NCBI GenBank assembly: GCA_037176725.1
Contig: JAZBRS010000076.1
Coordinates: 122,097,001-122,161,000, forward strand
Origin: Posidonia oceanica
Taxonomy: Eukaryota; Streptophyta; Magnoliopsida; Alismatales; Posidoniaceae
Reading direction: 5' to 3'
Length of the DNA: 64,000 bases
The notes beneath the pieces are model-generated. The model was not told the DNA's origin. It saw only the letters and a list, made by a program, of their open reading frames with translations, and did not search any database. Numbering within the stretch: position 1 is the stretch's first letter; each line of letters starts with the position of its first letter. A program made the position numbers and the translations under genes. Shown here one piece after another: positions 1 to 49,231 of this stretch.

Positions 1-1393
1 GGGCGCGCCAGCGGCCGACGTACTCCCCGAACGGCTCGCCAGAGTTCTGCTTGATGGCGATCAAGTCCGCCCTCTTTGGGACTAGATCGAGGTTGAAGGA
101 ATATTGTTCCAGGAATGCCTGACTGAGGTCGTTCCAAGTCTTGATGGCTGACATATCAAGTGATGTGAACCACTTGAGTGCCGGCCCGGTCAAACTCTTC
201 TGGAACAAGCGGATCAGCAACCTCTCGTCAGCCTGCAGCTGAGCGAGATCACCGTAATACGCCTTCAGGTGTGCTACAGGGCAGCCCCTACCATTATACT
301 TTTCGAAGTCCGGGATTTTGAACTTCGGAGGGAGTACCGCCTCTAGAAAGTAGCAGAGGTCCCGGAACTGGTAGGTCTGGTGCTCTGTACCCTGCACTAG
401 TCGTAGTGCCTTCTCCAAGACGTCCATCCGGTTATTGATGGGGTCTGGGATTGCTGCTGTAGGAGAGGGATCAGCAGGGGTAGTGAGCACATACGCCGAA
501 TGGGTCGCACCTAAGTGCTCCTCCGGATCTACCATAGCGTCGCCTGGTGGAGCAACGGGATGGCCGGTGTATCCGTGCTGGGGGACAGTGTATGCAGGAG
601 TGTATGCAGGATGCTGGACTGGGTGGAGAGGAGAGGAGTAAATGCCATGCTGTGCTGGAATAGGGGGAGGATGACGGAGCACCAGTTGCTGTACAAGCGG
701 GGTGCCAGACAGCGAGCCAGTGAGGTACTGGGCTCCAGCCGATCCAAAGGATTGACCACCAGAAGGAAGTGGAGCATGCTGTGCCAAGTGTTGTGCAGGA
801 GGCGGTAAACGGGCCCCCATCGTCGGAACCGTGAGCAGTTGCGACGATGGTCGAGGCGGAGGTGCAGAGGTCGATGCAAGAAATGTAGGAACTGGCCTCG
901 GAGGAACCTCAGGGACGACAGAGACAGAAGAAGGACGAACTGATAGAGCCATGCCCTGCAGTCTCTGGGCGAGCTCCATCAGGTGCTGGTACTGAGCTTC
1001 GGGCGTCTCGCCAGTGGGGACGCTGAAGTGCAGTGCCGGCGGGGATTGAGAAGTAAGTGGCACGGACACAGACTGTCCGGGAGGGAAGGATTCTACAGAA
1101 AGTGCCGCAGCAGCGGTGGAAGGGATGTCGAAAGCGACGTATCCCTGGGACGGAGGGGGCAGTGGCGTCTCCGGAGCGCGAGTAACGACCGTCAAGATAG
1201 ATTCGGCAACCGGATCTGGAGGAAGGGAGACTTGCCACTGTCCCGGGGTGTACTGAGAACCTAGAGACGTTAGAGGAGAAAACCCTGGCGTCGGAGGGGG
1301 AACAAGAGGGACAGAAAGAGCAACCGGAGGGGCCAGAACGGAAACACCCTCCGTAACAGGAGTAAAAGAAGGCTCACTAACGTACTGGGCCAT
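1..1393 (-). CDS. gag: Gag polyprotein, N-terminal part (open, runs off window)
   Basis: The start is the ATG whose complement is at 1391-1393 and begins MAQY; the equivalent ATG of the complete element is at 35373. By my reading the frame is open for all 464 visible codons. The first 300 or so residues are Pro/Ser/Thr/Gln-rich. A Retrotrans_gag-type capsid segment follows near the window edge (conserved FKIPDFEKYNG, LKAY, FQKSLTGPALKWF, TWNDL). Gag would form the cytoplasmic particle that packages element RNA. This copy keeps CAG at the two positions where the complete element has TAG (35799 and 36027), so the visible part is intact. Protease and pol would lie beyond position 1. Confidence 0.8.
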   Translation of the reverse strand, partial: MAQYVSEPSFTPVTEGVSVLAPPVALSVPLVPPPTPGFSPLTSLGSQYTPGQWQVSLPPDPVAESILTVVTRAPETPLPPPSQGYVAFDIPSTAAAALSVESFPPGQSVSVPLTSQSPPALHFSVPTGETPEAQYQHLMELAQRLQGMALSVRPSSVSVVPEVPPRPVPTFLASTSAPPPRPSSQLLTVPTMGARLPPPAQHLAQHAPLPSGGQSFGSAGAQYLTGSLSGTPLVQQLVLRHPPPIPAQHGIYSSPLHPVQHPAYTPAYTVPQHGYTGHPVAPPGDAMVDPEEHLGATHSAYVLTTPADPSPTAAIPDPINNRMDVLEKALRLVQGTEHQTYQFRDLCYFLEAVLPPKFKIPDFEKYNGRGCPVAHLKAYYGDLAQLQADERLLIRLFQKSLTGPALKWFTSLDMSAIKTWNDLSQAFLEQYSFNLDLVPKRADLIAIKQNSGEPFGEYVGRWRA

Positions 1394-2698
1394 CGTTGAC
1401 CTAGAGCGTGTGAGAACAGGGCTGCGACGGGTATTCAAGCGGTGAGTCCTAAGAGGAGCTATCGTCGCAAGTGCGGATAGCTCAGAGGGGGAATGGTCGT
1501 GAACTAAGTCGCAAAAGGGCGTCAATGAGGGTCGATACTCGAGCTCTAGCAAAGGGAAACTCGCTTACCGATCACGCTGACATGACAGAAGGAAATTAGG
1601 GTTAGAAACTAAAAGATGGATGCAAATGAGTTAGTTAAGTGGCATGAATGATGTGCATGCTTTCTAGTATGCCCCCCTTACCTAACTAGTGTTTCCTAGC
1701 AAGGCTGTCTACTCCGGGTATCCCTGGATGTACGGGTCACCGACTCAGGTCAGAAAAAGTAGGTCCCCTATCTAACTCCCGGCCCAAAGCTCAGGTAATG
1801 ACAAGGTGGTGCGTTAGTGGCCTCTACCCCGCCAAAGCGTGGGTGGTACCCTCTACTAACACCGACACGACCCCCGGACAAGGAGGGGACGGACCGACCA
1901 ACTTATGCCACGCCCAAAGCAGTGGAACAAGAGGCCGGAACCGTCCTTCGCAGACTAGTGGGTGGACTCAGAGGAGAAGAATGCATGCCCTATATGATGC
2001 TTGTGCAAAATGATTAGCGTTTTTTATTTTGCACATTTTATTAACCAAAGGGAGTGGAGGATTGTTTGTAGTCTCTAGTTGTTCCTAGAAGTTCTTTTTA
2101 CTTGCATTTTTTTGTTAACCATGGGGGAAGCAGACAAGTCTCTACTATCCTAAGCATGGCAAGTGCAAAAGGGAAGAAAATCAGTCAAAATGGCAAGCAA
2201 CCATCATACAACACAACAAAAGGCATGTTCATGGCATGTGTGAGTGTTTGTGAGCATGATGGTGAAAAAGAAACATTCATCAAGTCAAAAAGCATGTAAG
2301 CATAGTATGTGCATGTGTAGTGACATAGCAAGAGTGTAAAAGAAGCATTCAACGTTCAAAAAGCATATATTTTAGCCAAACAAAGTATGTAGACATGTAA
2401 TGTGCGAGAATTAAAGCAGTAATAAGCAAGTAAGGTAAAAGTAAGCAGACTGTAAAAGAAATAGGAGCACAAGCAAGACAGTAAGTAAATAAACAGGCAA
2501 AGGAGTAAAGCTAGGCAGAAGAAAGCTCAAATCGAGACGAAAGAGGTGCAAAACCTAAGCAAAGTAGCTATGAAGCGACTCGCTAGAGGTTTGCACAGAA
2601 AAGCGAGCAAAACAGGCGAAGAAGGCACACAAGGCAGACAAAGCTGCAAAACAAGCAAGCGAAAAGCCGGGAATGAAAGCCGGAGTCTAGTCTACAGT
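1394..2698 (-). other. 5' leader between PBS and gag (minus-strand copy)
   Basis: Untranslated leader homologous to 34062-35372. The segment 1690-2010 is especially similar to 34760-35090 and may hold packaging or dimerisation signals, which is inference. I see no supported gene in it. Confidence 0.6.
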
Positions 2699-2716
2699 TC
2701 CCCAGCAGAGTCGCCA
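2699..2716 (-). promoter_or_regulatory. Primer-binding site, tRNA-Arg type
   Basis: On the minus strand the 18 nt read TGGCGACTCTGCTGGGGA, one nucleotide after the LTR end. This differs by one base from the PBS at 34044. It begins with TGG, complementary to a tRNA CCA end, and fits the 3' end of plant tRNA-Arg(ACG) as I recall it. Confidence 0.75.
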
Positions 2717-2717
2717 C

Positions 2718-5700
2718 TGTAGCGATCCCGATCGGAACCAGGCTCGCTATATATAGCGGCGATTGAGATCCGAGGAAGAGGCTCAACTCGAAAACACTTG
2801 AAATCGAGGAGAAAAAGGAAAGATAAGACAAATCAGAGTCGCCACCACGTCTATTAACGGAAGGCGAGGAAAACCGGGGTAATGCGTGAATTAACGCGCA
2901 AAACCGAGCAAGGAATGCAAAGCAAAGCAATGCAAAGGAAAACAAATGCAAATGAGATGACTCTAGCCTGGGATAAGGGCAGTACGGTCATTGCGGGCCA
3001 AAAGACAGGGTAAGGACTCCTGTTACGTGCGGGGAAGGTGTTAGGCACCCCCGACACGCCCGAGAATCGGTCTTTCTAGGCTTACGCTCGCATACGCAGG
3101 GAAATGCAGGATTGAATGCCTATGTGCCTATAAATGCCTGAATGAATGCTCAAGGTGTGCTCTAAGTGGAAAGGAACAAAGCAAGGAAGTAAACGTGCTC
3201 TCTAAGTGCTCAGCTGCGCTATCTGTGTTCCGAACAAGGCGAAACCTAGCTCGTGAGAACTCCAGGCAGTAAGCATCACAGCCCTATATGCAAATGCAGG
3301 CGAGAAAGCAAAACGACGGGGAAACCATGCAATGCAATTGACATGCAGGGGAAAACGGTGCAAAACACGCAAAACGAGGCGAGAAATGAGCAACGCACGC
3401 AAAACGATGCAAAAGAGCAAAAACGGCGCGCAAAACAAGCGAGAAAGCAAGACAGCACGCAAAACAAGACAGGAGAGCAGGAAGGCACGCAAAACGAGAC
3501 GAGAAAACAGAATGGCACGCAAAACGGAGCGAAAGAATAAAACCGGTACGCAAAACGAGCGATAAAGTAAGGCAGCGCGCAAAACGAGACAAGGAAGCAA
3601 AGAGGCACGCAAAACGGTGCAAAAACGAGAGCGACATGCAAAACAAGCGAGAAAGCAAGGCAGCACACAAAATAAGGCAAGAAAACAGGTGGGCACGCAA
3701 AACGGTGCCAAAACAGGGGCGGGCACGCGAAACGGTGCCAAAACAGCGAAGGAAAAACCTCAGAAAGGCCATGCAAATGCAAGAATGCAGAGAAAGATCA
3801 GAAGAGGCCAAAGGGGAGACAAAACAACGTGTGTGTAAGAACAGACGTCGTTTAGGGCCACTCAGAGTAGGTGTGAAGACCTACGGAGGGGAGAGTGTGC
3901 AAACGGAGGGATTACCACCTCTTTGCGACTGTTTCCCACTAAACCGTTCCACGGTGTGTCTCGCATGCTGCCCAAAGCTCGCGATGCGATCGGATCGTGG
4001 AAAAGGGGGAAGGAAGTCACATTAAGTGGAAAACCCAGGGAAAACACAACGCAAATCACACAAGAATACGCGAAACGGAGGTTGGAAGATACAAGCAGAA
4101 AGGGGAGACCCTATTCTACATGCTCAAAGAGACAGAAAGCGAAAACACGGAAAACTGTGCGAATGGCATGCGAATGAATGCAATGCAGGAGTTCAGGAGG
4201 ACATACCTGGAAATCCAGGAGCCTGATCTGAAATTTGTCTGGTCCATGCTGAAGAGCGCTTCACTGCGGTCGCCTGGGCAGCTTACTTGAGAGGATCCAA
4301 CAGCCGGATTGAAAGATAACGTAGCTCCAAGGCAGAAGGGCCAGAACAGGGGAGAAGAATAGATCTAGGTGTTCAGGAGGTCCTAGGGGTGTGCAAAAAG
4401 GTCCTCCCAAGTGAAGGGGAGCTAAAAGTGCTTGGTGTGTGCAAGAAGATGCTAAAATGCAAGGCTAAATGGATGCAGAATGCATGCAAAAGCAAGAAAA
4501 TGCAAAGAGAAGTAATTGGGAAAAAACCAGGGATTCAGAAAGCATTTTGAAAAAGAAAGGGGCTAAAAATGCAAATTTTCCAGAAAACAGGGGTTCACAG
4601 GAAAGGGTTTTGAAAACAGGAGAGGGCTAGGCTTCATTTTGTAAAAACTAGGCTCAGAAAGCAGCTTTGAAAAGAGGGTATGCTTTAGAAGAAGTTTTGA
4701 AAGCAGAAAGGGGTCAGAAAGCAATTTTGGAAAAATTGGGGTCTAAAATGCAAATTTTCCAGAAAACAAGGTTCTGGGGAGTCTGGGAATACTAGTGGAG
4801 GGTTTGCATGCAATTTGGTAGGCATAGGAGCTAAGATGCAACCTAGGGGCAAAATGGTCTTTTCACATGACTTTTGAAAGATGCAAGGACCTATGTGTGA
4901 TTTTTAAATCATGTAGGGGTTAAAAATGCAATTTTGTATGGAAAACATGCTCTGAAAAATCAGGAACAGGACCACAGTGCAATTTTTAAAAAGATCAGGG
5001 TCAAAAATGCAATACAGTATGCTAAAAATGCATGCATGAGCTACTGTCCATTTAAAATGGACCTAAATGCAAATATGCAAAAACAGAGGGTAAAATATGC
5101 AATGCAGTATGCAAAAATCATAAATGAAACCTAGGTTGCTACAGTGCAAGGGCTTAAGTGCAAAAACAGAAACATGCAGGGACTTAGAATGCAATGCAGT
5201 ATGGTAAAATATATGCAAATAAATGTACTGATTGTGAGCAGGACTTACATGCAAAAAACGAAAACAGAGGGGCTAAAATGCAAAATATTATAACAGCACA
5301 GCACAGTAAATGGATCAGATTGCAAATACTGAAAAACATAAATAATAACAGCAATTTAACATAGTATTTAATTAGAAACTAAGCAAAAATAAATGGTAGA
5401 AGGACTAAAGTGCAAAAATTGAAGAACTTAAACTAAACATGCAATATTTACATCTAAAACTATACTGAAGAAAAATAAATGAACAGTGCTGATCGTCGAC
5501 GGCGACGAGCACTGTAGCACAAAGCTTCCAGAGCTCGTGGCCGTCGACAGGGGAGGCTAAGGATGCGCGGGAAGGCGGAGAGCGACGTCGGCGATCGTCC
5601 GGAGCTCCGGGGGTCGACTGGAGCTCGCTCTGTTGGTCGGAGTGTCCGGAGGAAGAGCAGCCGGCGCCGGAGAAGGAGGACTGTCCGGCGAGCTGACGAC

Positions 5701-8507
5701 GGAGCAGGAGGACCGGAAAGCCTATTCTAAAGGCCGGGGAAGCAAGAGAAGAAGAAGAGGAAGCTAAAGGAAGCAGTGGTTACCCTTTTCCGCGCCTGAG
5801 TCGTTCCCTCGACGTCAGTGGCTTCAGCTGTCGCCGGTGGGGGCCGTCCGGTCGCTGCGGGCGTCGCCGGCTGCTCGCGGAGATTGGAATTACTTCAGAG
5901 CGTTCCTTCGGTGCTTCCTGATCGACCGGACTGAAGTTCTACAGCTCAGGTAATGTTTCGGCTCTTTTGGGTTCAAGGGATGCTGCCGGAGACCGGGGAG
6001 GGTGTTTGCTGCTCCCCAGGCTAGATGGAGTGCTCCAGGGGATTGCTGGGGGTCTGGGGAAGGTTTCTGGGCGGTCGAATTGGGTTTCTGTAGAGCGTAG
6101 GTGGGGATTGAAGGTCGGGCCGGTTTCTGATCAGTGGGTGAAGCAACTGTTTGTGGTGGCGTTTGGAGTCTGTGGTGAGGGAAAGGGCTGAAGATCGGGT
6201 GGCCTGGAAAGGTGAAGTGCAGGTGAGTGTCGGGGAAGGATTTGGGGAGCTGCGGTGGATTGTGGTGAAGGCAATTCCAGGAGGGAAGGTGTTGGGTTGC
6301 AGTTGGTTTCAGTGGTGGAAGTTCGGGTGAATTCCGGGTGTTCTGGGTGGTGAAAGGCCGGGAAAAGGTGGAGGAAGGCTGCTGGGTTTCTGAGTGAACT
6401 TGGGGGATGAAATGCAAGAGAGTGGATGGCTGGAACGGGCTTGGTTTCTGGAGAAGAAAAGAGGGAGTATGCTGCTGAAAATCAGGGGGAGAAGAAGGAG
6501 ATTTTGGTGAGAATTCTCTAGATTTCTCTCGCTCTCTCTCTCGGATGGCAAAAGGCGAGCGAAGGAGGTGGAAAGCTGAGGCTTTATCAGCTGCTCTCCG
6601 GCTTGCTCGCGCGCTCTGGAATTCGAATTCCAGCGGCGCGATCCACTGCTGCTGAGGGAGACAAGCAGCCAGCGAGACGACAGGCAATTAAAGCCTCCCG
6701 GATTTGGTGCTGAGATGGAGGAGTCGGCGAGCTGCTGTAGATTGAAAGGATTGAGCTTCAAATTTAAACAAGGAGGGAAGGCTGTCGCAGCAGCTCGCGG
6801 GAGAAAACCGGCGGAAGAAAAAAAAGCAGGAGGTTGGAGGAGGAAGAAGGAAGGTGGAGAAGGCGGGCGGGCCGGACTGTGGGCCGAAAAAAGAAATAAA
6901 ACTTGAAGAAAAAAAAAGAGAAGCAGGCCGACAGGCCCAGTAAGGAAAGGAAAGAAAGAAAGAAGGGAAATAAGAAAGAAGGAGGGGGGCAAAAAGGGGA
7001 AATAAAGTTGGTAAAGATAAACCAAAAATAAATAAAGATATTAGAAGAGTTGTGCTGTAGATTAGGATTTTAATTAAGATTTTTAATGGTTATTTTGAGT
7101 TGATTAATGTGTTTTGGGCTTGATTAGGGTTTTAGGGCTTTGGTTTTGTTTTTAATTGGTTTTCACTTGATTAAATGCTTGTTGAACCCTTTTTAAATTG
7201 TTTTAAAAATTGTATTTCCCTTGTTGGACGCTTAAAATATTGATTAGGATTTTTTTAGGATTTATTTTGTATTAATTAGGGTTGGTTTTAGGTTCTTAAG
7301 TTTTAGTCTTTTTAGGGTTTTTTCCTTCTTAAGTCTTTTAAGTTGTGTTTTGATTTTTATTTTGATTTTCTTGAAGTTTTTAGTTGGATTTTTCTGGTTT
7401 GATAGGGTGTTTTTTAGGTCTTTCAGATGTGTTTTTCTTTTCTTTTTTTTAATTAAGTTTTTTACTTGTTTTTCTTATGTTTATTAAGTTAAGTCTTTTG
7501 CCTTCTTTAATTACTTGTTTTAGTATTTGATTTTTTAATTCTTCTTTTTGGGTTTGTTTTTTAATTCTTCTGATGGGTTTTTACCTTTGGTGGGTTTTGA
7601 TTTTATTTTAGCTTTTTCCTTGATTTTTTAGTGTTTTCTTTTGATTTGTTTTGCATTTTTTAGTTTGCATGTTTGGTTTTCTTTTTAGCTTGCTTAAGTT
7701 AAGTTTAAGTTGTTAATTGCTTGTTTAACATTTTTTAATTGTTTTTCTTAGGATTCTGATTTGCTCCTTTTATGTTTTGAGGTTTTTGCAGATTTTTATG
7801 GGTTTTTGTGGATTTTTGCAAGAGGGAGAAAAGGAAAAGAGAAGGAAGAAAGAAATGGAAAAAAGAGGAAAATAAGAGGAAAAGAGATAGGTTGGAGGAA
7901 AATGATTTTTTTAAAATTCAGAAAAAAATATTAAAAATAAAGTAAAAATAGGGATAAGATAGAGGAGAGATAGAAGCACAGAGGGGGCCCACAGCCAGAC
8001 CAGAAAAAGGATAAGAAAGGGATGAAAAGAGAGATGATAATCAGGAGAGAGAGAGGAGAGAGAAAATGATAATCCCGGAGAGAAAAAAGGATAATTTGGG
8101 TGAAAGAGGGTCTTAATGGTCTTGGAATGTGGTGGAAATTGGTGAGTGGGTAGTCTAGGGTTTGAAGTCTTGGGTCTGAAGTTTTGGTTTGATTTTAAGG
8201 AGGTTTTGGAGGGGTTTCAAGGTGTAGAAAAAGGGTAGTTTCACCTAGGTTTTCTAGGGTTTTTGGGAATGGGTCAGGTTTGGAAATTTCTAGGTTTTTG
8301 GGTAGGGTTGTTGAGTGGATAGTGGTGGGTTTTCCTATGGATTTTGGTTAGGTTTTGAGGTTGGGAAGGGGGGTAAAGGTTTAGGTCAAAATGGGCTGTT
8401 TTTGAAGGGTAGAGAGGAGGATTAGGGTTAGGGTTTGGTTGGGGTTTGATCCAGCAATTACCAGGAGGGCTCCAAGGGTCCAGGCCTGCCAAGATGGGGT
8501 GTCAACA
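2718..8507 (-). repeat. LTR of the minus-strand copy (shared by two internal regions)
   Basis: About 5.8 kb. On the minus strand it starts TGTTGACACCCCATC (8507 downward) and ends GGATCGCTACA (at 2718), the same termini as the LTRs at 27966 and 50457. It aligns along its length with them: a U3-like A-rich block (here T-rich, about 7020-7780), a GC-rich block (5490-5890), a stretch of TGCATTTAGTCC-like motifs (4440-5460), and a GTTTTGCG minisatellite (about 3340-3740). No protein-coding gene is supported; the open frames here are low-complexity by-products. Confidence 0.88.
3340..3740 (-). repeat. Minisatellite inside LTR with GTTTTGCG core
   Basis: Irregular units of roughly 20-35 bp carry the core CGCAAAAC on the plus strand (GTTTTGCG on the element strand), separated by variable GAGA/AAGCA-like spacers. 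It corresponds to 33090-33425 and 55576-55911. It explains the repetitive arginine- or phenylalanine-rich open frames seen here. Confidence 0.7.
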
Positions 8508-8574
8508 GATGCCCCTCCCTGAGCGAGGGCAAGCGGAGCGCGGCCGCTGCTCAGGGTTGACAAGACACCCCATC
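8493..8574 (-). promoter_or_regulatory. PPT and LTR-edge hairpin (minus-strand copy)
   Basis: The polypurine tract AGGGAGGGG (complement of 8512-8520) lies four bases from the LTR edge. Outer arms GATGGGGTGTC (8493-8503) and GACACCCCATC (8564-8574) are perfectly complementary. Inner arms CCCTGAGC (8517-8524) and GCTCAGGG (8549-8556) are also complementary and overlap the PPT. The same arrangement occurs at 50390-50471. Confidence 0.7.
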
Positions 8575-9060
8575 TGACCGGCGGGAGCAGCGAGTTGCTA
8601 TGGGCGTGAGCTACTTATTCGGCGGATGCACCGAAGATCGTAGCCCGTTGCCGTAATGCAAGATGCCAGTGCAGATGGATGCTGTGCTGTGTGTATGTAT
8701 GCTGATGCGAGTGCAATGCAAGAGTTAGTGTAAAAGTTAGTGCAGCTGTAAGAAAATGCTGATGCTGTGCAAGTGATACTGATGATGCCAAAGTAATATG
8801 CAGTGCTAGCTAAGAAAGTGCTGAGATGATGCAAAGAAAATGGTAAAAAGGCGCGATGTGGTGCGAATATCTGGCAGGGAGGCCAGACTTGCACGACAAA
8901 GCGAAGGAAAACAGGGTGCAGCTAGTCCCCGCCCGGGGAGCAAGCTAGCAGGGAGAAGAGAAAAGGGGCGCGAGGGGAGAGAGGCCAACTCTCCTATCGC
9001 AGGAAAGGGGGTGCGTGACTCCATCTTCCTGGGACAAGGTCACGCCGAAAAGGAAAAAAA
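8575..9060 (-). other. 3' noncoding region near PPT
   Basis: 8575-8830 matches 50130-50390 of the complete element in reverse complement. The rest (8830-9060) is less similar. No gene is supported. Confidence 0.55.
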
Positions 9061-10010
9061 ATGATAAGGTGACGGGCTTATCGTCCGGATAGTTTACGGT
9101 CCTATCAACCAGGAGTGACAGTTTACGGACCTGTCAACCGGAGCAGTTGTGAGTGATAGTTACTGGATATCAGCCGTATAACATGGTTGTGGGTGATAGT
9201 TTAGGAGTATCAGCCTAACGACAGTTTACGGTCCTGTCAACCGGTGGATAGTTTACAGACCTATCAACTGGAGGATAGTTTACAGACCTATCAACTGGAA
9301 ACCACAAACCATGAGTGATAGTTACTGGATATCAGCCGTATAACGCAATGCCGGATAGTTTACAGTCTATCATCTGGAACGACAGTTTACGGTCCTATCA
9401 ACCGGCGGATAGTTTACAGACCTATCAACTGGAGGATAGTTTACAGTCCTATCAACTGGAAACGGCATTGCGAGGGACTGTTACTGGATGTCAGCCGTAT
9501 AATATGATTGCGCGTGGTAGTTTACAGTCCTACCAACTGGTGGATAGTTTACAGACCTATCAACTGGAGCGACAGTTTACGGTCCTGTCAACCGGCGGAT
9601 AGTTTACAGACCTATCAACTGGAAACGCGCAATGATGAGGGATAGTTACTGGATATCAGCCGTATAATGCAATTGCGGGTGATAGTTTAGGAGTATCATC
9701 CTAACGACAGTTTACGGTCCTGTCAACCGGTGGATAGTTTACAGACCTATCAACTAGAGCGACAGTTTACGGTCCTGTCAACCGGAAACCGCAATTGCAA
9801 GGGACAGTTACTGGATGTCAGCCGTATAACGTAATTGCACGCGATAGTTTAGGGGTATCAGCCTAACGACAGTTTACGGTCCTGTCAACCGGTGGATAGT
9901 TTACAGACCTATCAACTGGAAAAGTGCAATTACGAGGGACAGTTACTGGATGTCAGCCGTATAACACAACTGTGGGCCGACCATGGATCGACCAGAAGAT
10001 AGTTTAGGAT
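9061..10010 (-). repeat. Nested hairpin array with covarying closing stems
   Basis: Short modules of the form GATAG-N9-CTATC, GACAG-N9-CTGTC and GATA-N9-TATC recur every 20-30 bp. They are grouped in five blocks, each bounded by long complementary arms that differ between blocks: 9182-9192 with 9302-9313; 9344-9353 with 9463-9472; 9507-9515 with 9625-9633; 9668-9678 with 9789-9799; 9830-9840 with 9924-9934. A linker hairpin of GATA-gttactgga-TATC type precedes each block. An outer 8-bp pair, 9144-9151 with 9965-9972, can enclose all five. The array lies in the 3' noncoding region and would be transcribed from the minus strand. The complete element has only a reduced counterpart near 49300-49445. 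Confidence 0.85.
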
Positions 10011-10021
10011 TATCAGCCTGA

Positions 10022-10195
10022 GATAGTTTCGGATATCAGCCTAGCACGAGTGATTGATTGATTGATAGTTTCGGATATCAGCCTAGCACGAGTGATTGAT
10101 TGATTGATAGTTTCGGATATCAGCCTAGCACGAGTGATTTGATTGATTGATAGTTTCGGATATCAGCCTAGCACGAGTGATTTGATTGATTGATA
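10022..10195 (-). repeat. 42-43 bp tandem repeat, four units
   Basis: Units start at 10022, 10064, 10106 and 10149. Each has the hairpin GATA-gtttcgga-TATC followed by AGCCTAGCACGAGTGATT. Two units of the same type occur in reverse complement at about 49305-49385. Confidence 0.8.
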
Positions 10196-10940
10196 AGAGG
10201 GGGCGAGATCATGATGAGAAATTAATCTAAAGAGGGGGACGAGATCAGGATGAGAAATTAAGCTAAAGAGGGGGATGAGATCATGATGAGAAACTAAGCT
10301 AAAGAGGGGGACGAGATCATGATGAGAAGCTAAGCTAAAGAGGGGGATGAGATCATGATGAGAAACTAAGCTAAAGAGGGGGATGAGATCATGATGAGAA
10401 ACTAATCTAAAGAGGGGGACGAGATCATGATGAGAAATTAAGCTAAAGAGGGGGATGAGGTCATGATGAGAAATTAAGCTAAAGAGGGGGATGAGGTCAT
10501 GATGAGAAATTAAGCTAAAGAGGGGGATGAGATCATGATGAGAAATTAAGCTAAAGAGGGGAATGAGGTCATGATGAGAAATTAAGCTAAAGAGGGGGAT
10601 GAGGTCATGATGAGAAATTAAGCTAAAGAGGGGGATGAGATCATGATGAGAATTTAAGCTAAAGAGGGGGATGAGATCATGATGAGAAATTAAGCTAAAG
10701 AGGGGGATGAGATCATGATGAGAAATTAAGCTAAAGAGGGGGGTGAGATCATGATGAGAAATTAAGCTAAAGAGGGGGATGGGATCATGATGAGAAGTTA
10801 AGCTAAAGAGGGGGATGAGATCATGATGAGAAATTAAGCTAAAGAGGGGGATGAGATCATGATGAGAAATTAAGCTAAAGAGGGGGATGGGATCATGATG
10901 AGAAGTTAAGCTAAAGAGGGGGATGCGATCATGATGAGAA
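10196..10940 (-). repeat. 36-bp tandem repeat, about 20 units
   Basis: The unit has GAGGGGGATGAGATCATGAT followed by GAGAAATTAAGCTAAA. It is homologous to the 35-bp array at 48451-49230 on the other strand. Being a multiple of three, it generates a long open frame with a 12-residue periodicity (HHDLIPLFSLIS) that I do not consider a gene. Confidence 0.88.
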
Positions 10941-10949
10941 GTGTTGATT

Positions 10950-11160
10950 GATAAGATATCGAACTTATCGGCCGGCAAAGAGGGGATGAGGGAATGATGA
11001 GAATGATAAGATATCGGACTTATCGGCCGGCAAAGAAGGGGATGAGGGAATGATGAGAATGATAAGATATCGGACTTATCGGCCGGCAAAGAAGGGGTAT
11101 GGGAATGATGAGAATGATAAGATATCGGACTTATCGGCCGGCAAAGAAGGGGTAAGGAAA
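10950..11160 (-). repeat. 55-56 bp tandem repeat, four units
   Basis: Units start at 10950, 11005, 11061 and 11116. Each begins GATAAG-atatcgga-CTTATC, a 6-bp-stem hairpin, followed by GGCCGGCAAAGAAGGGG. A single counterpart lies near 49232-49262 in the complete element. Confidence 0.8.
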
Positions 11161-11484
11161 TGATGAGAAGAAATCATCCCATGACGCCAGGAACGTCATA
11201 GGGGAAAGAGGGAAGGAATGATACCAAGGGGCGATCAAAAGATGCCCCTGGTGTCGGGATGACACCAGGGGTTGGCCTGCGCGTCCTCGGCATCGAAAGC
11301 AGAGAGTGATGACAAGAGTGTCGTGCATGTCAGACGAGTAGTTTGGGGTACCAGCCCGCAAGGGACTCAGCTGAGGGCGATCAGCTGGGGACTCAGCTGG
11401 GGATGACCAGCCGAGAAGAGTGTCAGGTTGACGGACCTTTCGCCGAGCAGTTTGGGGTGCCAGCCCGCAAGGGATTCAGCTGAG
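11161..11484 (-). other. Truncated end of the 3' noncoding region with an 11-bp-stem hairpin
   Basis: Contains the hairpin CCCCTGGTGTC (11245-11255), loop gggat, GACACCAGGGG (11261-11271), then partial units of the 114-bp repeat found at 47279-48330. Similarity to the element ends after CAGCTGAG at 11484. Satellite begins at 11485 with TGCTGGCGG. Confidence 0.75.
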
Positions 11485-14400
11485 TGCTGGCGGTCTGGTC
11501 TTGATAAGGCTTGCACTTATCGTTCTTGACCTCTTCCGTGTCCTGATAGGGCTTGCTCCTATCATTCCTGGCGGTTTGGTCTTGATAAGGCATGCACTTA
11601 TCAACCCTAACCACTTCCAGGTGTTGATTGGGCATGCACCTATCATTCCTAGCAGTTCGGTCTTGATAAGGCAATCACAAATCAATCCTGACCTCTTCCG
11701 GGTCTTGATAGGGCTTGCGCCAAACCTTCCAGGTGGTCCGGTCTTGATAAGGCTTGCACTTATCATTCTTGACCTCTTTCGTGTCTTGATAGGGCTTGCA
11801 CCAATCATTCCTGGTGGTCCGGTCATGATTCGGCTTGCACGAATCATTCCTGACCTCCCTCTGGGTCTTGATTGCGCAAGCACCGATCTTTCCTAGTGGT
11901 CCAGATTTGATAAGGCTTGCACTAATCATTCCTGACCTCTTCTGGGTTATGATAGGGCTTACGCCTATCAATCCTGGCGTTCCGGTCTTGAAACGGCTTG
12001 CGGTTATCATTCCTAACGTCTTCCGGGTCTTGAATGGGCTTGCACCTATCAATCCTCGCTATCCGGTCTTGATATGGCTTGCACTTATCAATCCTGACCT
12101 CTTCCGGGTCAGGATAGGGCTTGCACCTAGCATTCCTGGCGGTCTTGACATGGTAAGGCTTGCACTTATCATTCCTGACATCTTCCGGGTCTTGATAGTG
12201 CTTGCACCTATCATTCCTGGCGGTCCGGTCATGATAAGGCTTGCACTTATCATTCCTGACCACTTACGTGTCTAGGTAAGGGTAGCACCTAACAATCCAG
12301 GCGGTCTGGTGTTGATAAGGCATGCACAAATCATTCCTGGCCTCTGCCGAGTCTTGATAGGGCTTGCAGCAATCATTCCTACCGGTCCAGTCATGATAAG
12401 GCTTGCACTTATCATTCCTGACCTCTTCCAGGTCTTGATAAGGCTTGCACCAATCATTCCTGGTGGTCTAGTCATGATAAGGCTTGCACGAATCACTCCT
12501 GACCTCTCTCTGGGTCTTGATAGCGCTTGCACATATCATTCCTGGTGGTCCTATTTTGATTAGGCTTGCACTTATCATTCCTGACCTCTTCCAGGTCTTG
12601 ATAGGGCTTACGCCTGTCAATCCTGGTGGTCCGGTCTTGAGAAGGCTTGCACTAATCATTCCTGACCTCTTCTGGGTCTTGATAGGGCTTGCACCAACCA
12701 TTCCTGGTGGTTCGGTCTTGATAAGCCTTGCACTTATCATTCCTGACATCTTCTGGGTCTTGATAGTGCTTGCACCTATCATTCCTGGCAGTTCGGTCTT
12801 GATATGGCTTGCACTTATCAGTCCTGACCTCTTTCGGGTCTTGGTAGGGCTTGCACTTATCATTCCTGACGGTCCATTCATGATAAGGCATGCACTTATC
12901 ATTCCAGAACTCTTCCGGGTCTTGATAGGGCTTGCACCCATCATTCCTAGCGGTCCGGTCTTCATAAGGCATGCACTTTTCATTCCTGACTTCCTCTGGG
13001 TAATGATAGGGCCTGCACCTATCATTCCTGGCGGACCGGTCTTGATAAGTGTTGCACTTATCATTCCAGACCTCTTCCGAGTCTTGTTAGGGCTTGCACA
13101 TATCATTCTTCGCTGTTTGATCTTGATAAGGCTTGCACTTATCATTCCTGACCTCTCCCGGTGTCATGATAGGGCTTGCCCCTACCATTCCAAGCGGTCC
13201 GGTCTTGATAAGGCTTGCACTTGTCATTCCTGACCTCTTCCGGGTCATGATAGGGCTTGCGCCAATCAATCCTGCCGGTCCAGTCATGATTTGGCTTGCA
13301 CTTATCATTCCTGGCCTCTTCTAGGTCTTGATTGGGCTTGCAGCTATCATTCCTGGTGGTCCTGTCAAGATAAGGCTTGCACATATCATTCCAGACCACT
13401 TCCGGGTCTTGATAGGGCTTGCACCAATCATTCCTCGCAGTCCGGTCCTGATAAGGCTAGCACTTATCATTCTGGACCTCTTCCAGGTCTTGATAGTGCT
13501 TGCACCTATCATTCCAAGCTGTCTGGTCATGATATGGCTTGCACTTACTTTTCCTGACCTCATCCTGATCTTGATAGGACTTGCGCCTAACATTCCTGGC
13601 AGTCCGGTCTTGATATGGCTTGCACTTATCATTCCTGATCTCTTCCGGTTCTTGATAGGGCTTGCTCTATCATTCCTGGCGGTCTGGTCTTGATTAGGCT
13701 TGCACATTCCATTCTTGACATCTTCTAGGTCTTGATAGGGCATGCGCCAATCATTCCTGGCGGTCCGGTGTTGATATGGCTTGCACATATCATTCCTGTC
13801 CTTTTCCGAGTTTTGAAAGGGCATGCTCCAATCAATCCTGGCGTTACGTTCTTGATAAGTCTTGCTCTATTCAATGCTGACCTCTTCCAGGTCTTGATAG
13901 GGCTTGCACCTACCATTCCTGGCTGTCCGGTCTTGATAGGGCTTGCACCTACCATTCCTGGCTGTCCGGTCTTGATAAGGCTTGCGCTTATCATTCTTGA
14001 CCTCTTCCAGGTCTGGATAGGGCTTGCACCTATCATTCCTAGCGGTTCGGTCTTGATAAGGCTTGCACTTATCAATCCTGACCTATTCTAGGTTTTGGTA
14101 GGGCATGAACCTATCACTCTTGGCGGTCCGATCATGATTCGGCTTGCACTTATCATTCTTGACCTCTTCCGGGTCTTGATAGGGATTGCACCTATCATTC
14201 TTGGCGGTCTGGTCAAGATAAGGCTTGCACTTATCATTCCAGACCTCTTTCGGGTCTTGATAGGGCTTGCACCCAACATTCCTGGTGGTCCGGTCTTGAT
14301 AAGGCTTGCTCTTACCATTCCTTACCTCTTCCGGGTCTCGATAGGGCATGCACAAATCAATCTTGGCAGTCCGATGTTGATATAGCTTGCACTTATCATT

Positions 14401-17400
14401 CCTGACCTCTCCCTAGGTCTTGATCGGGTTTGCACCTATCATTCCTGGCGGTCCGGTCTTGATAAGGCTAGCACTTATCATTCCTGACCGCTTCTGGGTC
14501 AAGATTGGGCTTGCGCCTACCATTTTTGACGGTCCGGTCATGATAAGGCATGCACTTATCATTCCTGACCACTTCCGGGTGTTGATAGGTCTTGTAGCTA
14601 CCATTCCAGGTGGTCCGGTCATGATAATGCTTGTATTTGTCATTCCTGACCTCTTCCTGGTCTTGATAGTGCTTGCACCTATCATTCTTGGCGGTTCGAT
14701 CTTGATAAGGCTTGCACTTATCATTCCTGACCACTTCTAGGTCTTGATTGGGCTTGCACCTAACATTCCTAGTGGTCCGGTCATGATTAGGCTTGCACTT
14801 ATCATTCCTGACCTTGTCCGGGTCTTGATAGTGCTTGCTTCTATCATTCTGGGCGGTCCGGTCATCATAAGGCTTGCACCTATCATTCCTGACCTATCCA
14901 TGGGTCTTGATTGGGCTTGCACCTATCATTCTTGGCGGTCCAGTCGTGATACGGCTTGCACTTATCATTCCTGACCTCACCCAAGGTCTTGATAGGGCTT
15001 GCCGCTATCTTTCCTGGCAGTCCGGTCTTGATAAGGCTTGCACTTATCAATCCAGACCTCTTCCAGGTCTTGATAGGTTTTGCACCTATCATTCCTGGCG
15101 ATCCGGTCTTGATAAGGCTTGCACTATTCGTTCCTGACCTCTTCCGGGTCTTGATTGGGCTTGTACCTATCAATCCTAGTGGCCCGGTCTTGATAAGGCA
15201 TGCACTTATCGTCCTTGACCTCTTCCTGGTCTAGATTAGGCAAGCACCTAAAAATTCTGGCAGTCCGGTCATGATAAGGCAATCACTTATCAATCCTGAC
15301 GTCTTCCGGGTCTTGATAGGGCTTGCGCCAAACATTCCAGGCGGTCCAGTCATGATAAGGCTTGCACTTATCATTCCTGATCTCTTCCGGGTCTTGATAG
15401 GGCTTGCACTTATCATTCCTAGCAGTCCGGTCATGATTAGGGTTGTACGAATCGTTCCTGACCTCTCTCAGGGACTTGATTGCGCTAGCACCTATCATTC
15501 CTAGTGGTCCGGTTTTGATAAGACTGGCACTAACATTCCTGACCACTTCTGGGTCTCGCTTGGGCTTGCGCCTATCATTCCTGGCGGTCCAGTCTTGATG
15601 AGGCTTGCACTTATCATTCCTGACGTCTTCTGGGTCTTGATTGGGCTTGCACCTATCAATCCTGGCGGTCCAGTCTTGATAAGGCTTGCACTTATCTATA
15701 CGGACCTCTTCTGGGTCTGGATAAGGCTTGCTCCTAGCATTCCTGGCGGTTAGGTCTTGGTAAGGCTTGCACTTATCATTCCTGACAACGTCCGGGTCTT
15801 GATAGTGCTTGCACATATAATTCCTGGCGGTCCGGTCTTGATATGGCTTGCACTTATCACTCCTGACCTCTTCTGAGTCTTGGTAGGGCTAGCACCTATC
15901 ATTCCTGCTGATCCGGTCATGATAAGGCTAGAACTTATCATTCTTGACCTCTTCCAGGTCGTGATAGGGCTTGCCCCCATCATTCCTGGCGGTTCGGTCT
16001 TCATAAGGCATGCACTAATCATTCCAGACCTCCTCCGGCTCTTGATAGGGCTTGCTCCTATCATTCCTGGTGCTCCGGTCTTGATAAGGCGTGCACTTAT
16101 CATTCCTGACCTCTCTCGGGTCTTGATAGGGCTTGCACATGTCATTCTTGGCAGTCCGATCATGATAAGGCTTGCACTTATCAGTCTGATCTTGATAAGG
16201 CTTGCACTTATCATTCCTGACCTCTCCCTGGGTCATGATAGGGCTTGCCCCTATCATTCCTAGCAGTTCGGTCTTGATATGGCTTGCACTAATCAATCCT
16301 TACCTCTTCCCAGTCTTGATAGGGCTTGCGCCTATCATTCTTGGCGGTCCGATATTGATAACCCCTGCACTTAACATTCCTGACCTCTTTTTGGTCGTAA
16401 TAGGGCTTGCACCTATCATTCCTGGCATTCCGGTCATGATGAGGCAAGCACATATCATTCCTGACCTCTTCATGGTCTTGACAAGGCTTGCACCTGTCAT
16501 TCCTATCGGTCCGGTCATGATAAGGCTTGCACTAATCAATCCTGAGCTCTCCCTCGGTCTTGAGAGGGCTTGCACCTATCATTCCTAGCTGTCCGGTCAA
16601 GATAAGGCTTGCACTTATCATTCCTGACCTCTTCTCAGTCATGATAGGGCTTGCTCTATCATTCCTGGCGGTCTGGTCTTGATTAGGCTTGCACTTATCA
16701 TTCCTGACCTCCTCCTGTCTTGATAAGGCTTGAACATATCATTCCGGACCTCATCCGTGTCTTGATAGGGCTTGCACCTATCTTTCCTGGCGGTCTGGTC
16801 TTGATAAGGCTTGCACTTATCGTTCTTGACCTTTTCTGGGTTTTGATAGGGCATGCACCAATCATTCCTAGCGTTCTGCTCTTGATAAGTCATGTACTAA
16901 TCGTTCCACACCTCTTCTGGGTCTTGATAGGGCTTGCACCTACCATTCCCGGCGGTTCGGTCTTGATAAGGCTTGCGCTTATAATTCCTGACCTCTTCCG
17001 GGTCTTGATAGGGCTTGCACCTATCATTCCTGGTTGTTCGGTCCAGATAAGGCTTGCACTTGTCATTCCTGACCTACTTCGGGTCATGGTTGGGCTTGAA
17101 CCTATCACTCCTGGTGGTTCGGTCTTGATTAGGCTTGCACTTATCATTCCTGAACTCTTCCAGGTCTTGATAGGGCTTGCACTTACCAGTCCTAGCTTTC
17201 CGGTATTGATAAGGCTTGCACTTATCATTCCTGACCTCTTCTGGGTCTTGATAGGGCATGCACCTATCTTTCCCGGTGGACCAGTCATGATAAGGCATGC
17301 TCGTACCATTCCTGACCTCTTTCGGGTCTTGATATGGCATGCACATATCATTCTTGGCGGTCTGGTCTTGATAAGGCTTGCACTTATCATTCTTGACCTC

Positions 17401-20400
17401 TCCCTTGGTCTTGATAGGGCTTGCACCTATCATTCCTGGCGGTCCGGTCTTGATAAGGCCTGCACATATCATTCCTGACCCCTTCTGGGTCATGATAGGG
17501 CTAGCGCCTATCATTTTTGGCGGTCCGGTCAAGATAAGGCTTGAACTTATCATTCTTTACCTCTTCCTGTTCTTGAAAGGGCTTGTAGCAACCATTCCAG
17601 GCGGTCTGGTCATGATAATGCATGTACTTGTCATTCCTGACCTCTTCCTAGGCTTGATAGGGCTGGCACCTGTCATTCGTGGCGGTTCGGTCTTGATAAG
17701 GCTTGCACTTATCATTCTTGACCTCATCTGGGTCTTGATTGGGCTTGCTCCAAACATTCCTAGCGGTCCGGTCATGATAAGGCTTGCACTTATCGTTCCT
17801 GACCTCTTCTGGGTCTTGATAGTGCTTGCTCCTCTCTTTCGTGGCGGTCCGGTCATGATAGGGCTTGCATTTATCGTTCCTAACCTATCCAAGGGTCTTG
17901 ATAGGGCTTGCACCTATCATTCCTGGCGGTTCCGTCTGTTTAAGGCATGGACTTATCATTCCAGAACTCTTCCAGGTAATGATAGGGCTTGCGCCAGTCA
18001 TTCCTCGCGGTCCGGTCCAGATAAGGCTTGCACTTATCAATCCAGACCTCTTCTAGGTCTTGATAGGTTTCGTACCTACCATTCCTAGTGGTCCGGTCTT
18101 CATAAGGCTTGCATGTATCGTTCCTGACCTCTTCCGGGTCTTGATAGGGCTTGCACCTATCAATGCTGGCGGTCTGGTCTTGATAAGGCTTGCACTTATC
18201 GTTCCTGATCTCTTCCGTGTCCTGATAGGGCTTGCTCCTATCATTCATGGCGGTCTGGTCTTGATAAGGCATGCACTTATCAACCCTGACCACTTCCAGG
18301 TGTTGATTGGGCATGCACCTATCAATCCTAGCGGTTCGGTCATGATAAGGCAATCACAAATCAATCCTGAACTCTTCCGGGTCTTGATAGGGCTTGCGCC
18401 AAACATTCCAAGCAGTCCGGTCTTGATAAGGCTTGCACTTATCATTCTTGACCTCTTCCGTGTCTTGATAGGGCTTGCACCAATCATTCCTAGCGGTCCG
18501 ATCATGATTAGGCTTGCACGAATCATTCCTGACCTCCCTCTGGGTCTTGATTGCGCAAGCACCTATCTTTCCAAGTGGTCCGGATTTGATAAGGCTTGCA
18601 CAAACCATTCCTGACCTCTTCCGAGTCTTGATAGGGCTTGTGCCTATCATTCCTGGCGTTCCGGTCATGAAAAGGCTTGCACTTATCATTCCTAACGTCC
18701 TCCGGGTCTTGATTGGGCTTGCACCTATCAATCCTCGCTATCCGGTCTTGATAAGGCTTGCACTTATCAATCCTGACCTCTTCTGGGTCAGGATAGGGCT
18801 TGCGCCTAGCATTCCTGGTGGTCTTGTCATGATAAGGCTTGCACTTATCATTCCTGACATCTTCGGGTCTTGATAGTGCTTGCACCTATCATTCCTGGCG
18901 GTTCGGTCTTGTTAAGGCATGCACTTATCGTTCCTGACCTCTTCTGGGTTTTGATAGGGCTTGCACCTAACATTCCTAGCGGTCCGGTCTTGATAAGGCT
19001 TGCACTTATCATTCCAGACCTCCTCCGGATCATGATATCGCTTGCTCCAATCATTCCGGGCAGTCCGGTCATGATAAGGCTTGTACTTATCATTCCTGAC
19101 TTCTCCAAGGGTCATGATAGGGCTAGCCCATATCATTCCTAGCGGTCCGGTCTTGATAAGGCACGCACTAATCATTCTTGACCTCTTCTGGGTCATGAAA
19201 GGGCTTGCGCCTATCATTCCTGGCAGTCCGGTCTTGATAAGGCTTGCACTTAACATTCCAGACCTCTTCCAGGTCTTGATAGGGCTTGCACCTATCAATC
19301 CTGGCGGTCCGGTCATGATAAGGCTTGCACTTGTCATTCCAAACCTCTTCCGGGTCTAGATAAGGCTAGCACCTAACATTCCTGGCAGTCAGGTCATGAT
19401 AGGGCGTGCACATATCAATCCTGACCTCTTCTAGGTCTTGATAGGGCTTGCGCCTAACATTCCTGGCGGTCCGATCTTGATAAGGCTTGCACTTATGATT
19501 CCTGACCTCTTCTAGGTCATGATAGTGCTTGCACCAATCATTCCTGGCGGTCCAGTCATGATCAGGCTTGCACGAATCATTCCTGACCTCTCTCTAGGTC
19601 TTGATAGCGCTTGCACATATCATTCCTGACCTTTTTCGGGTCTTGATTGGGCATGCGCCTAACATTCCTGGCGGTCTGGTTTTGTTAAGGCTTGCACTTA
19701 TCATTCCTGACCTCTTCCTGGTCTTGATCAGGCTTGTACCAATCATTCCTGGCGGTCCAGTCTTCATAAGGCTTGCACTTTTCAATAATGACCTCTTCCT
19801 GGTCTTGATAGGGCTTGCACCTACCACTCCTGGCGGTCCGGTCTTGATGAGGCTTGCACTTATCTTTCCGAACATCTTCTGGGTCTTGATAGTGCTTGCA
19901 CTTATCATTCCTGACCTCTTCCGGGTCTTGGTAGGGCTTGCTCTGATTATTCCTGGCGGTCCGGTCTTGATAAGGCTTGCACTTATCATGCCTGAACTCT
20001 TCCGGTTCTTGATAGGGCATCCACCCATCACTCCTGGCGGTCCGGTCATCATAAGGCATGCACCCTTCATTCCAGACCTCCTCCAGGTCTTGTTCGGGCC
20101 TCCACCTATCATTCGTGGTGGTCCGGTTTTGATAAGGCTTGCCCTTATCTTTCCTGACCTCTTCTAGGTCTTGATAGGGCTTGCACATATCATTCTTGGC
20201 GGTCCGATCATGATAAGGCTAGCACTTATCGTTCCTGACCACCCCCTGTGTCGTGATAGGGCATGCCCCTATCATTCCTAGCGGTTCGGTCGTGTTAAGG
20301 CTTGCACTTACCATTCCTGACCTCTTCCGGGTCTGGATAGGGCTTGTGCATATCAATCCTGGCGGTCCGATCATGATAAGGCTGGCACTTATCATTCCTG

Positions 20401-30900: not shown

Positions 30901-31274
30901 GGTCCGGTCATCTTCTCCGGCAACGTCCTCCGGTCTCCACGGCGCTCCAGCCAACGGAACGCCATCCCGGTGATCCCCGGAGCTCCGCACGGACGTCAGG
31001 AGTCTCCTCCGGTCTTCAGAGTGCAGCTTCGCTGCGTCGAACGGCCGGACCGAGCTTCAGACCTTCTGTAGAGCTCCGGCGAACGCTCCGGCACGTTCCA
31101 GACAACGCCGTCCTCCACCGATTGCCGCCCTGCCTCCGCCAACTCCGGGAGCACCTCCTCCGCCCGACTGCGCATCCTCAGCCCCCCCCCCCCCGTCGGC
31201 GGCACGAACTCTGGAAGCTTCGTGCTACAGTGATCGTCGCCGTCGACGATCAATACTGTTTGCTTATTTTTCGG

Positions 31275-31284
31275 CTTATATAGT
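31275..31284 (+). promoter_or_regulatory. Candidate TATA box in the 5' LTR
   Basis: CTTATATAG follows the GC-rich block. The equivalent site of the minus-strand copy reads CAGTATAG, so conservation is weak. This is a position-based guess for the element promoter; no transcription start can be seen. Confidence 0.25.
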
Positions 31285-33089: not shown

Positions 33090-33425
33090 TTCGCTATTTT
33101 GGCACCGTTTCGCGTGCCCGCCCTCGTTTTCGCTCCGTTTTGCGTGCCCATCTGTTTTCTCGTCTCGTTTTGCGCACTGTCTTGCCTCCTCGTTCGTTTT
33201 GCGTGCCGGTTTTATTCTTTCGCCCCGTTTTGCATACCATTCTGTTTTCTCGTCCTGTTTTGCGCACCTTCTTGCTCTCTTATCTCGATTTGCGCGCTGC
33301 TTTGTTTTCCGCTCGTTTTGCGTGACGATTTCGCTCTTTTGCATCGTTTTGCGCGCGTTGTTTGCTTCCCGCCTCGTTTTGCGTGTTTCGCGCCGTTTTC
33401 TCCTGCATGTCGACCCCATTGCATG
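33090..33425 (+). repeat. GTTTTGCG minisatellite in 5' LTR
   Basis: Irregular 20-35 bp units with GTTTTGCG and TTTTCTCGTC-like spacers. It encodes only repetitive spurious frames. Confidence 0.7.
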
Positions 33426-34043
33426 GTTTTCACGCTGTTTTGTTTTCTCGCTTGCATTTGCATATAGGGCTGTGATGCTTACTGCCTGGAGTTCTCACGA
33501 GCTAGGTTACGCCTGGTTCGGAACACAGACAGCGCAGCTGAGCACTTAGAGAGCACGTTTACTTCCTTGCTTTGTTTCTTCCCACTTAGAGCACTCCTTG
33601 AGCATTCACTTAGGCATTCATAGGCACATAGGCATTCAATCCTGCATCTTTTTGCGTATGCGAGCGTAAGCCTAGAAAGACCGATTCTCGGGCGTGTCGG
33701 GGGTGCCTAACACCTTCCCCGCACGTAACAGGAGTCCTTACCCTGTCTTTTGGCCCGCAATGACCGTACCGCCCTTATCCTAGGTTAGAGTCATCTCATT
33801 TGCATTTGTTTGCATTTGTTTCCCTTTGCATTGCTTTGCTTTGCATTTATTGCTCGGTTTTGCGCGTTAATTCACGCATTACCCCGATTTTCCTCGTCTT
33901 CCGTTAATAGACGTGGTGGCGACTCTGATTTGTCTTATCTTTTCCTTTTCTCCTCGATTTTAAGTGTTTTTCGAGTTGAGCCTCTTCCTCGGATCTCAAT
34001 CGCCGCTAAATAGCGAGCCTGGTTCCGATCGGGATCGCTACAG

Positions 34044-49230: not shown

Positions 49231-49231
49231 T

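Follow-up and report, generated by a model that had tools for sequence, protein, structure and literature searches.

The window and its retrotransposons

The window, the whole 64-kb stretch of DNA that was analysed, bears two related LTR retrotransposon copies in opposite orientations and a satellite, arranged as follows.

1-11486, minus strand: array-bearing LTR retrotransposon copy, cut by the window start and meeting the satellite at 11487
Below 2718, minus strand: 5' internal part of this copy
About 2718-8507, minus strand: LTR of this copy
8508-11486, minus strand: 3' non-coding internal region of this copy
11487-27965 and 56529-64000: array of an 81-bp satellite, 299 monomers parsed, with two GATAAG/GATAGG hairpins per monomer
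27966-56528, plus strand: complete sister Ty3/gypsy LTR retrotransposon, without the nested array
27966-34042 and 50457-56528, plus strand: LTRs of the sister, 99.57% identical
36075-40019, plus strand: gag-pro of the sister, a long open frame
40098-44192, plus strand: pol of the sister, a long open frame
45765-46967, plus strand: downstream ORF of the sister with a plant mobile domain (PF10536, E-value = 3.4e-21)
49395-49442, plus strand: site in the sister where the 0.9 kb array is missing and two units directly adjoin

The minus-strand copy (1-11486) is related to the complete plus-strand element (27966-56528), which has the target site duplication (TSD) ATAAG and sits inserted in the 81-bp satellite. 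The satellite may derive from the 3' repeats of an element of this kind. Specifically, the sister pol contains the domains RVT_1 (381-541), RNase H (604-734), RVT_3 (795-913) and an integrase core (1080-1177), and the element carries the marks by which Ogre/Tat elements are recognised: a second RNase H domain (aRH) between RH and INT, the plant-mobile-domain ORF, and tandem repeats between the coding region and the 3' LTR (83-, 114-, 35- and 46-bp arrays at 47281-49392). Its domain order is that of angiosperm Ogre/Retand elements. The host of the array is an Ogre/Tat-type LTR retrotransposon. As far as the available part of PMC6317226 goes, the angiosperm Ogre and Retand groups have their aRH placed between RH and INT, and a plant mobile domain ORF is carried by 57% of Ogre elements. 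The plant-mobile-domain ORF has 18 protein relatives on short contigs; among IMG/VR contigs none of four pattern matches for this protein was confirmed, and the unit motif described below had no match there.

Because the array (9144-9972) sits in the 3' non-coding region of the minus-strand copy, beside the LTR, the element-sense RNA corresponds to the minus strand. The nested array is missing from the sister, whose LTRs are highly similar and whose frames are open; hence not every recently mobile element needs it. With two adjoining units at that site and other repeats in the sister, the array would be at most one of several sequences filling the same role, or would be dispensable.

Some further properties of the two copies were recorded. 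At 2718-11486, 3' internal sequence adjoins one side of the LTR and 5' internal sequence the opposite side, which is the arrangement of tandem elements that share an LTR; the 3' part of the minus-strand copy breaks off at the satellite. The gag-pro frame of the sister (36075-40019, plus strand) encodes a G-patch domain (PF01585, residues 1005-1037) behind a protease-like region, an arrangement that occurs in some retroviruses.

Architecture of the array

The array comprises five blocks, each with complementary arms at its ends. Its six linker hairpins (D) are nearly identical and have near-constant flanks, and a sixth stem closes the whole.

9144-9151 and 9965-9972, minus strand: arms of the outer closing stem S0
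9182-9313, minus strand: block 1, arms 9182-9192 / 9302-9313 with one bulged base
9344-9472, minus strand: block 2, arms 9344-9353 / 9463-9472
9503-9637, minus strand: block 3, core arms 9507-9515 / 9625-9633, extended to 9503-9515 / 9625-9637 in other copies
9668-9799, minus strand: block 4, arms 9668-9678 / 9789-9799
9830-9934, minus strand: block 5, arms 9830-9840 / 9924-9934
9155-9181, 9317-9343, 9476-9502, 9641-9667, 9803-9829 and 9938-9964, minus strand: linker hairpins D0 to D5

The layout reads R0-D-L1..R1-D-L2..R5-D-L6, where R0 pairs with L6 and closes everything. A preliminary description, made from the sequence alone, had proposed the five blocks and the outer stem; all arms were located at the positions given there and are complementary, with the single bulge in block 1. 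Among the 720 permutations of the L and R arms (six each), this pairing ranks first by alignment score, and again by duplex energy on both strands. Three details of the same description needed revision. The arms of block 3 are complementary as proposed but longer, with 13 positions, one of which pairs in just 12 of 40 near-identical copies. The two to four hairpins per block are actually 4, 4, 4, 4 and 3 units in blocks 1 to 5. Finally, the array does occupy 9144-9972, but similar units lie beyond these limits, from 9063 and up to 11169.

Copies of the array in the genome

A search of the 2.96-Gb genome from which the window comes gave 2,562 candidates for the full array, of which 40 were scored, each full-length at 99-100% (the window copy and 39 others). 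Each stem pair is Watson-Crick in 37-40 of these 40 copies with two exceptions, namely the polymorphic S3 pair of block 3 and one optional extra S1 pair (21/40). On the junction side all six stems end at an A.A apposition (40/40; 39/40 for S4). The outer stem was found as predicted, with one correction: it has a ninth pair in 39 of the 40 copies, which is absent in the window copy.

Concerning abundance, the pattern of the R-arm/linker junction, which fixes the linker and a short flank and leaves the R arm free, had 30,228 + 30,822 = 61,050 exact matches in the genome, and the reversed control had none. At about five junctions per array, the genome would hold in the order of ten thousand arrays. 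Diverged arrays were examined at 40 loci (L078-L117, all on contig C1), which were chosen among the linker matches listed and found via the exact linker; for each locus the largest linker cluster was parsed, with up to 4 substitutions in the linker. Six of them, taken as a sample, are 82-89% identical to the window array. Six linkers are present in 29 of the 40 arrays, five in 5, four in 2, eight in 2, three in 1 and seven in 1.

If one mismatch or bulge is tolerated, 185 of the 193 blocks of the diverged arrays have closing stems of at least 6 bp and 148 have closing stems of at least 8 bp, while mismatched L and R arms of the same array gave 84/768 and 66/768. The outer stem S0 reaches at least 6 bp in 36 of 40 arrays. 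The eight failing blocks belong to L091, L093, L101 (two), L109 (two), L113 and L116, and the four failing outer stems to L085, L086, L101 and L112. Arrays with extra or shuffled blocks were observed at L091, L109, L113 and L084. In the first three, a rearrangement after insertion has apparently joined arms that do not match; L084, with its eight linkers, still has arms that pair.

Covariation of the closing stems

Compared over the outer 8 nt of each arm, and with the outer stem counted in, the diverged arrays contain 55 distinct arm pairs; of these, 17 were seen in at least two loci. The Watson-Crick fraction of these 17 shared pairs is 0.875, against a mean of 0.586 and a maximum of 0.735 in shuffles (0/2000 as high), although such p-values overstate independence because units and arrays have common descent. 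The arms vary between subfamilies and remain complementary: position 2 alternates between G-C and A-T, position 3 between C-G and T-A, and at position 6 every one of the four pair types occurs. Arms that drift in other copies without compensating change, which the preliminary description had named as evidence against its proposal, are thus not the rule, as 185 of 193 blocks keep their stem; the same figure supports its suggestion of selection on an RNA structure.

Counts over the genome point in the same direction. The L arm CGTAATTGC was found with its own partner 12,449 times and the L arm CATAATTGC with its own partner 2,234 times, while CGTAATTGC with the partner of CATAATTGC occurs 343 times; these counts cover three of the four combinations, all except L arm CATAATTGC with R arm GCAATTACG. 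The 343 mismatched combinations could stem from CpG decay of the matched class. It is this covariation of the closing stems, rather than folding energy, that constitutes the strong evidence.

A comparison of G.U with A.C mismatches was also considered as evidence for the sense strand. It was favourable on the window copy alone and was dropped after wider copies had been compared: with 39 further copies at hand, three sense G.U pairs seen in the window copy turned out to be confined, or almost confined, to that copy. In the 40 diverged arrays there is no sense-strand excess: the units have 8 against 8 and 25 against 24, and the arms, on antisense letters, have G.T 1 against A.C 4 in the shared pairs but G.T 28 against A.C 14 in the singletons, which lean the opposite way. 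Accordingly, no footprint of wobble tolerance is seen.

Predicted folding and strand preference

Folding of the whole region as RNA gave z = -2.8 for the sense and z = -2.6 for the antisense strand, with 0/20 shuffles as low in each case. The fold predicted for the whole region is therefore only moderately unusual: shuffled controls do not fold equally well, an outcome that the preliminary description had named as evidence against its proposal, but the margin is modest. Derangements of the R arms change the energy little and fold at least as well as the native order in 11/100 cases (sense) and 46/100 cases (antisense). Given these modest z values on both strands and the small effect of arm permutation, the folding energy of the whole array was discarded as proof. 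DNA parameters gave z = -4.6 for the plus and z = -2.8 for the minus strand. In the RNA folding of the diverged arrays the antisense strand is slightly more stable per base (-0.272 against -0.257 for sense).

The planar cloverleaf with every small hairpin, as drawn in the preliminary description, is not the predicted fold. Its energy of -169 lies about 71 (sense) and 94 kcal/mol (antisense) above the minima of -240 and -263, and only 2 of the 25 small hairpins of the window array (sense), or 7 of 25 (antisense), reach a pair probability of 0.5 in nested folding. The closing stems behave differently. In the sense RNA of the window copy all six have a pair probability of at least 0.81 (0.13 for the two outer pairs that lengthen the stem of block 3), whereas in the antisense RNA the stems of blocks 1 and 4 fail.

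The same preference is predicted for the diverged arrays, where 189 of the 193 blocks were scored, namely those with at least 4 of 6 outer pairs. The mean closing-stem probability is 0.819 for sense and 0.489 for antisense RNA; 163 (sense) and 91 (antisense) of the 189 blocks reach a probability of at least 0.5, and the sense value is higher by at least 0.2 in 92 blocks and the antisense value in 6. In four subfamily groups, which are a rough grouping of our own, the sense/antisense means are 0.87/0.33, 0.71/0.51, 0.89/0.64 and 0.97/0.93, the last group consisting of two arrays. The CATGAT arms are weak on both strands (0.49 sense, 0.39 antisense). When the arms were kept and all else was dinucleotide-shuffled, the values were 0.445 for sense and 0.377 for antisense (756 blocks). 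Composition thus appears to account for little of the strand preference, and it is the intervening sequence that is predicted to allow formation of the block stems in the sense RNA. For the outer stem there was no strand preference (0.955 sense against 0.941 antisense, 38 arrays). The minus strand, which had been put forward earlier as the one to fold, is indeed the element-sense strand, on which the block stems are predicted to form best.

The small units as candidate pseudoknots

The blocks hold short units that can be read as H-type pseudoknots.

9088-9919, minus strand: 25-27 nt unit, 18 copies, interpreted as an H-type pseudoknot; 9/18 lack the fourth S1 pair

In the sense RNA the 27-nt unit S1-L1-S2-L2-S1'-L3-S2' is CRGU, U, GAYAG, G, ACYG, UAAA, CURUC. 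An L3 of four A-rich bases and an L1 of 1-2 bases suit the classical H-type geometry; on the antisense strand the short and the long loops swap places. A Watson-Crick pseudoknot descriptor, composed after the units had been inspected, found 22 candidates on the sense and 4 on the antisense strand of the array-bearing 3' region, with a mean of 0.5 in 20 shuffles. In the 3' region of the sister it found 6 (sense) and 2 (antisense) against 0.55 in shuffles, four of the six being another motif, of 114 bp; in the LTRs and the coding parts it found about as many as in shuffles.

In the 18 window units (9 distinct) the cells changed on both sides and the covariation score lie above all 500 shuffles, the paired fraction exceeds 494 of 500, and these measures collapse once the partner is slid. 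Against the shuffles of these units, neither the count of pairs changed on both sides (84/500) nor that of pair types (496/500) was unusual. Among 290 diverged units one S1 pair is G-C in 201, A-U in 64 (20.2 expected) and mixed in 25, and the CGGU/GAUAG/ACCG/CUAUC unit is present in all 40 diverged loci. At one position of the CU-type units (40 loci and both window copies) 215 of 419 are Watson-Crick against 106 expected, and 131 are C with A, mostly in linker D and able to pair otherwise. The small units are candidate H-type pseudoknots in the sense RNA, with covariation in both stems; nested folding forms few of their S2 hairpins.

A probable structured RNA domain and competing explanations

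The region is likely a structured RNA domain within the genomic transcript of an Ogre/Tat-type LTR retrotransposon, kept by selection, and that selection acts on the sense-RNA structure is quite likely. The reading builds on the position, architecture and abundance of the array, on the covariation of arms and second stems in its sequences, and on the strand-specific folding predicted for the block stems. In the sense RNA, S0 would close a junction in which five long stems (S1-S5) alternate with six short linker hairpins (D), and in the window copy each of S1-S5 would hold three to four compact units able to form H-type pseudoknots. Comparison of copies shows that the closing stems, and likewise the units' second stems, have stayed complementary through changes as the family propagated; selection during retrotransposition would maintain the array.

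The main competing explanation is quasi-palindrome correction, in which reverse transcriptase or a replication polymerase switches template so that one arm is rewritten from its partner, without any selection on RNA, with switching during reverse transcription only as a possible variant. Such correction agrees with the almost purely Watson-Crick closing stems of the near-identical copies, and the units do look tandemly duplicated, with neighbouring repeats that differ in number between copies. However, the arm changes in the 40 near-identical copies are one-sided, none being matched in the partner arm, and hairpins in the satellite are left uncorrected. The latter, which are also of the GATAAG/CTTATC type, have double changes at chance (43 against 43.2 expected, 295/299 monomers), of which only 29 are Watson-Crick against 20.7 expected, and plus-strand mismatches of G.T 90 and A.C 94. 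Nor does switching predict that block stems form better in sense than in antisense RNA, beyond the shuffled-core control, or account for the plan of six linkers kept in 29 of 40 arrays. The mechanism, which the preliminary description had offered beside selection, is therefore less likely as the sole cause, and without RNA selection we consider it improbable. Its further idea of a Dicer substrate is not supported, as stems of 13 bp or shorter would hardly serve.

The array might also be an ordinary hypervariable 3' tandem-repeat array of an Ogre element, with arms inherited from an ancestral palindrome and nothing selected. Such arrays are usual in the lineage, according to the parts of PMC7004042, PMC11963269 and PMC3305785 that were available; the sister lacks the array, and the small hairpins are not favoured by nested folding. 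Yet the arms differ among slots and subfamilies and match inside each block. In addition, in eight loci chosen by full-length similarity (the window copy included) a 36-bp motif beside the array is present 1 to 16 times within the stretch examined, whereas the linker spacing of the array is kept, with six linkers by exact match in 6/8 and five in 2/8. This explanation is distinctly unlikely. A role of the structure as single-stranded DNA or cruciform, e.g., in the minus-strand cDNA of reverse transcription, or in chromatin, would suit the closing arms, which are Watson-Crick on both strands, and the low energies that DNA parameters give as well. Under RNA parameters, however, the block stems favour the sense strand, the minus-strand cDNA carries the antisense sequence, and the loop lengths of the putative pseudoknots fit mainly the sense strand, which makes a DNA structure very unlikely.

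Returning to selection on the sense RNA, the array may serve in the handling of genomic RNA. In such a scheme it would act in cis as a multivalent platform whose junction keeps about 20 similar units apart, and Gag or a host RNA-binding protein, as a repeated ligand, would recognise the full-length genomic RNA for packaging or export. We chose this scheme on four grounds: the roughly 20-fold repetition of the unit, its 3' non-coding position in the genomic RNA, the introns in Ogre transcripts and the structured export RNA of other LTR elements; a platform for genomic-RNA packaging or export nevertheless remains a doubtful, tentative proposal.

Relation to known systems

To our knowledge, no settled purpose has been assigned to the long 3' regions of Ogre/Tat elements, which are filled with repeats and seed plant satellites. 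Such hypervariable 3' regions are said to be treated by Macas et al. in 2009, and Ogre splicing reportedly by Steinbauerova et al. in 2008. Hypervariable 3' tandem repeats of Ogre/Tat elements as a source of satellites are described, in the portions available, by Vondrak et al., 2019 (PMC7004042), Vicient, 2025 (PMC11963269) and Mogil et al., 2012 (Gmr9/GmOgre, PMC3305785). As far as those accounts extend, the array resembles such repeats in its position between the coding region and the 3' LTR, the interleaving of tandem families, the family-specific units and the satellite nearby. Unlike the Ogre/Tat 3' repeats described, its repeats form one closed, covarying architecture. The terms "hairpin" and "secondary structure" are absent from the main text of the three papers, and among open-access PMC full texts no paper was found on a closed nested RNA fold of such repeats. 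Variable tandem repeats at this position are well known, while a closed nested RNA fold built from them was not found described in those texts.

Pseudoknots in tandem occur at plant-virus 3' ends, as in the upstream pseudoknot domain of tobamoviruses, which has few knots and no enclosing nested stems. The array would share with this domain the stacked H-type pseudoknots (predicted here) in a 3' non-coding region, but its units sit inside enclosing nested stems. Among LTR elements, the CTE of Mason-Pfizer virus is an RNA export element, and RTE, MTE and CTE are short and compact. In the available part of PMC12786077, the IAP RTE and the MusD MTE are RNA export elements with complex folds, pseudoknot and kissing-loop motifs being given for the MTE, and Ogre elements have intron-containing transcripts. 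Like RTE, MTE and CTE, the array would be a structured cis RNA element of an LTR element, as far as that part of the source allows the comparison; unlike them, it is about 830 nt long and modular, with about 20 repeated units, and an export role is suggested here by analogy.

Perhaps, with somewhat less than even confidence, the array represents a new class of very large modular retroelement RNA domain, a closed multi-branch junction with slot-specific stems that differ from one another and about 20 tandem pseudoknots, present in the order of ten thousand copies in one plant genome and selected on genomic RNA, so that Ogre 3' repeats would be an evolving scaffold rather than a passive satellite seed. 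If the 3' regions are modular RNA scaffolds, there would be a testable reason for their existence and for which of their repeats expand. The arrays would then also form a large natural data set of RNA structural evolution within one genome; compensatory change, the choice of stem for each slot and the gain and loss of modules could be read from it directly.

Other structured repeats of the 3' regions

Units of similar topology lie around the array.

9063-9087, minus strand: single unit of the same topology at the array edge, sense CGG..GAUAAG..CCG..CUUAUC, with a counterpart in the sister at 49419-49442
10022-10195, minus strand: 42-bp repeats; every repeat bears a CU-type unit made of GAUA/UAUC and a second, weak stem
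10949-11169, minus strand: 55-bp repeats, each with the unit CGG-CC-GAUAAG-U-CCG-AUAU-CUUAUC, one of four with a changed letter

The 55-bp repeat and the sequences at 9063-9087, 49419-49442 and 48328-48355 share the topology of the unit with different letters; the pseudoknot reading of the 83/114-bp and 42-bp units was made by eye and is partly weak. Rfam 15 gave no match at gathering scores in the window, and none at E-values up to 1 in 8500-11600. The sequence at 48328-48355 (plus strand) is a non-repeated, nearly ideal H-type pseudoknot candidate (UCGU-C-UGACAAG-C-ACGA-CACU-CUUGUCA), which the minus-strand copy has too, with one mismatch. Finally, a three-arm motif resembling GATACCA...TGGTATC...GATACCA was observed in both copies (11205-11290, 47560-47620 and 48390-48450). 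Its middle arm can pair with either outer arm, which is an arrangement of alternative hairpins.
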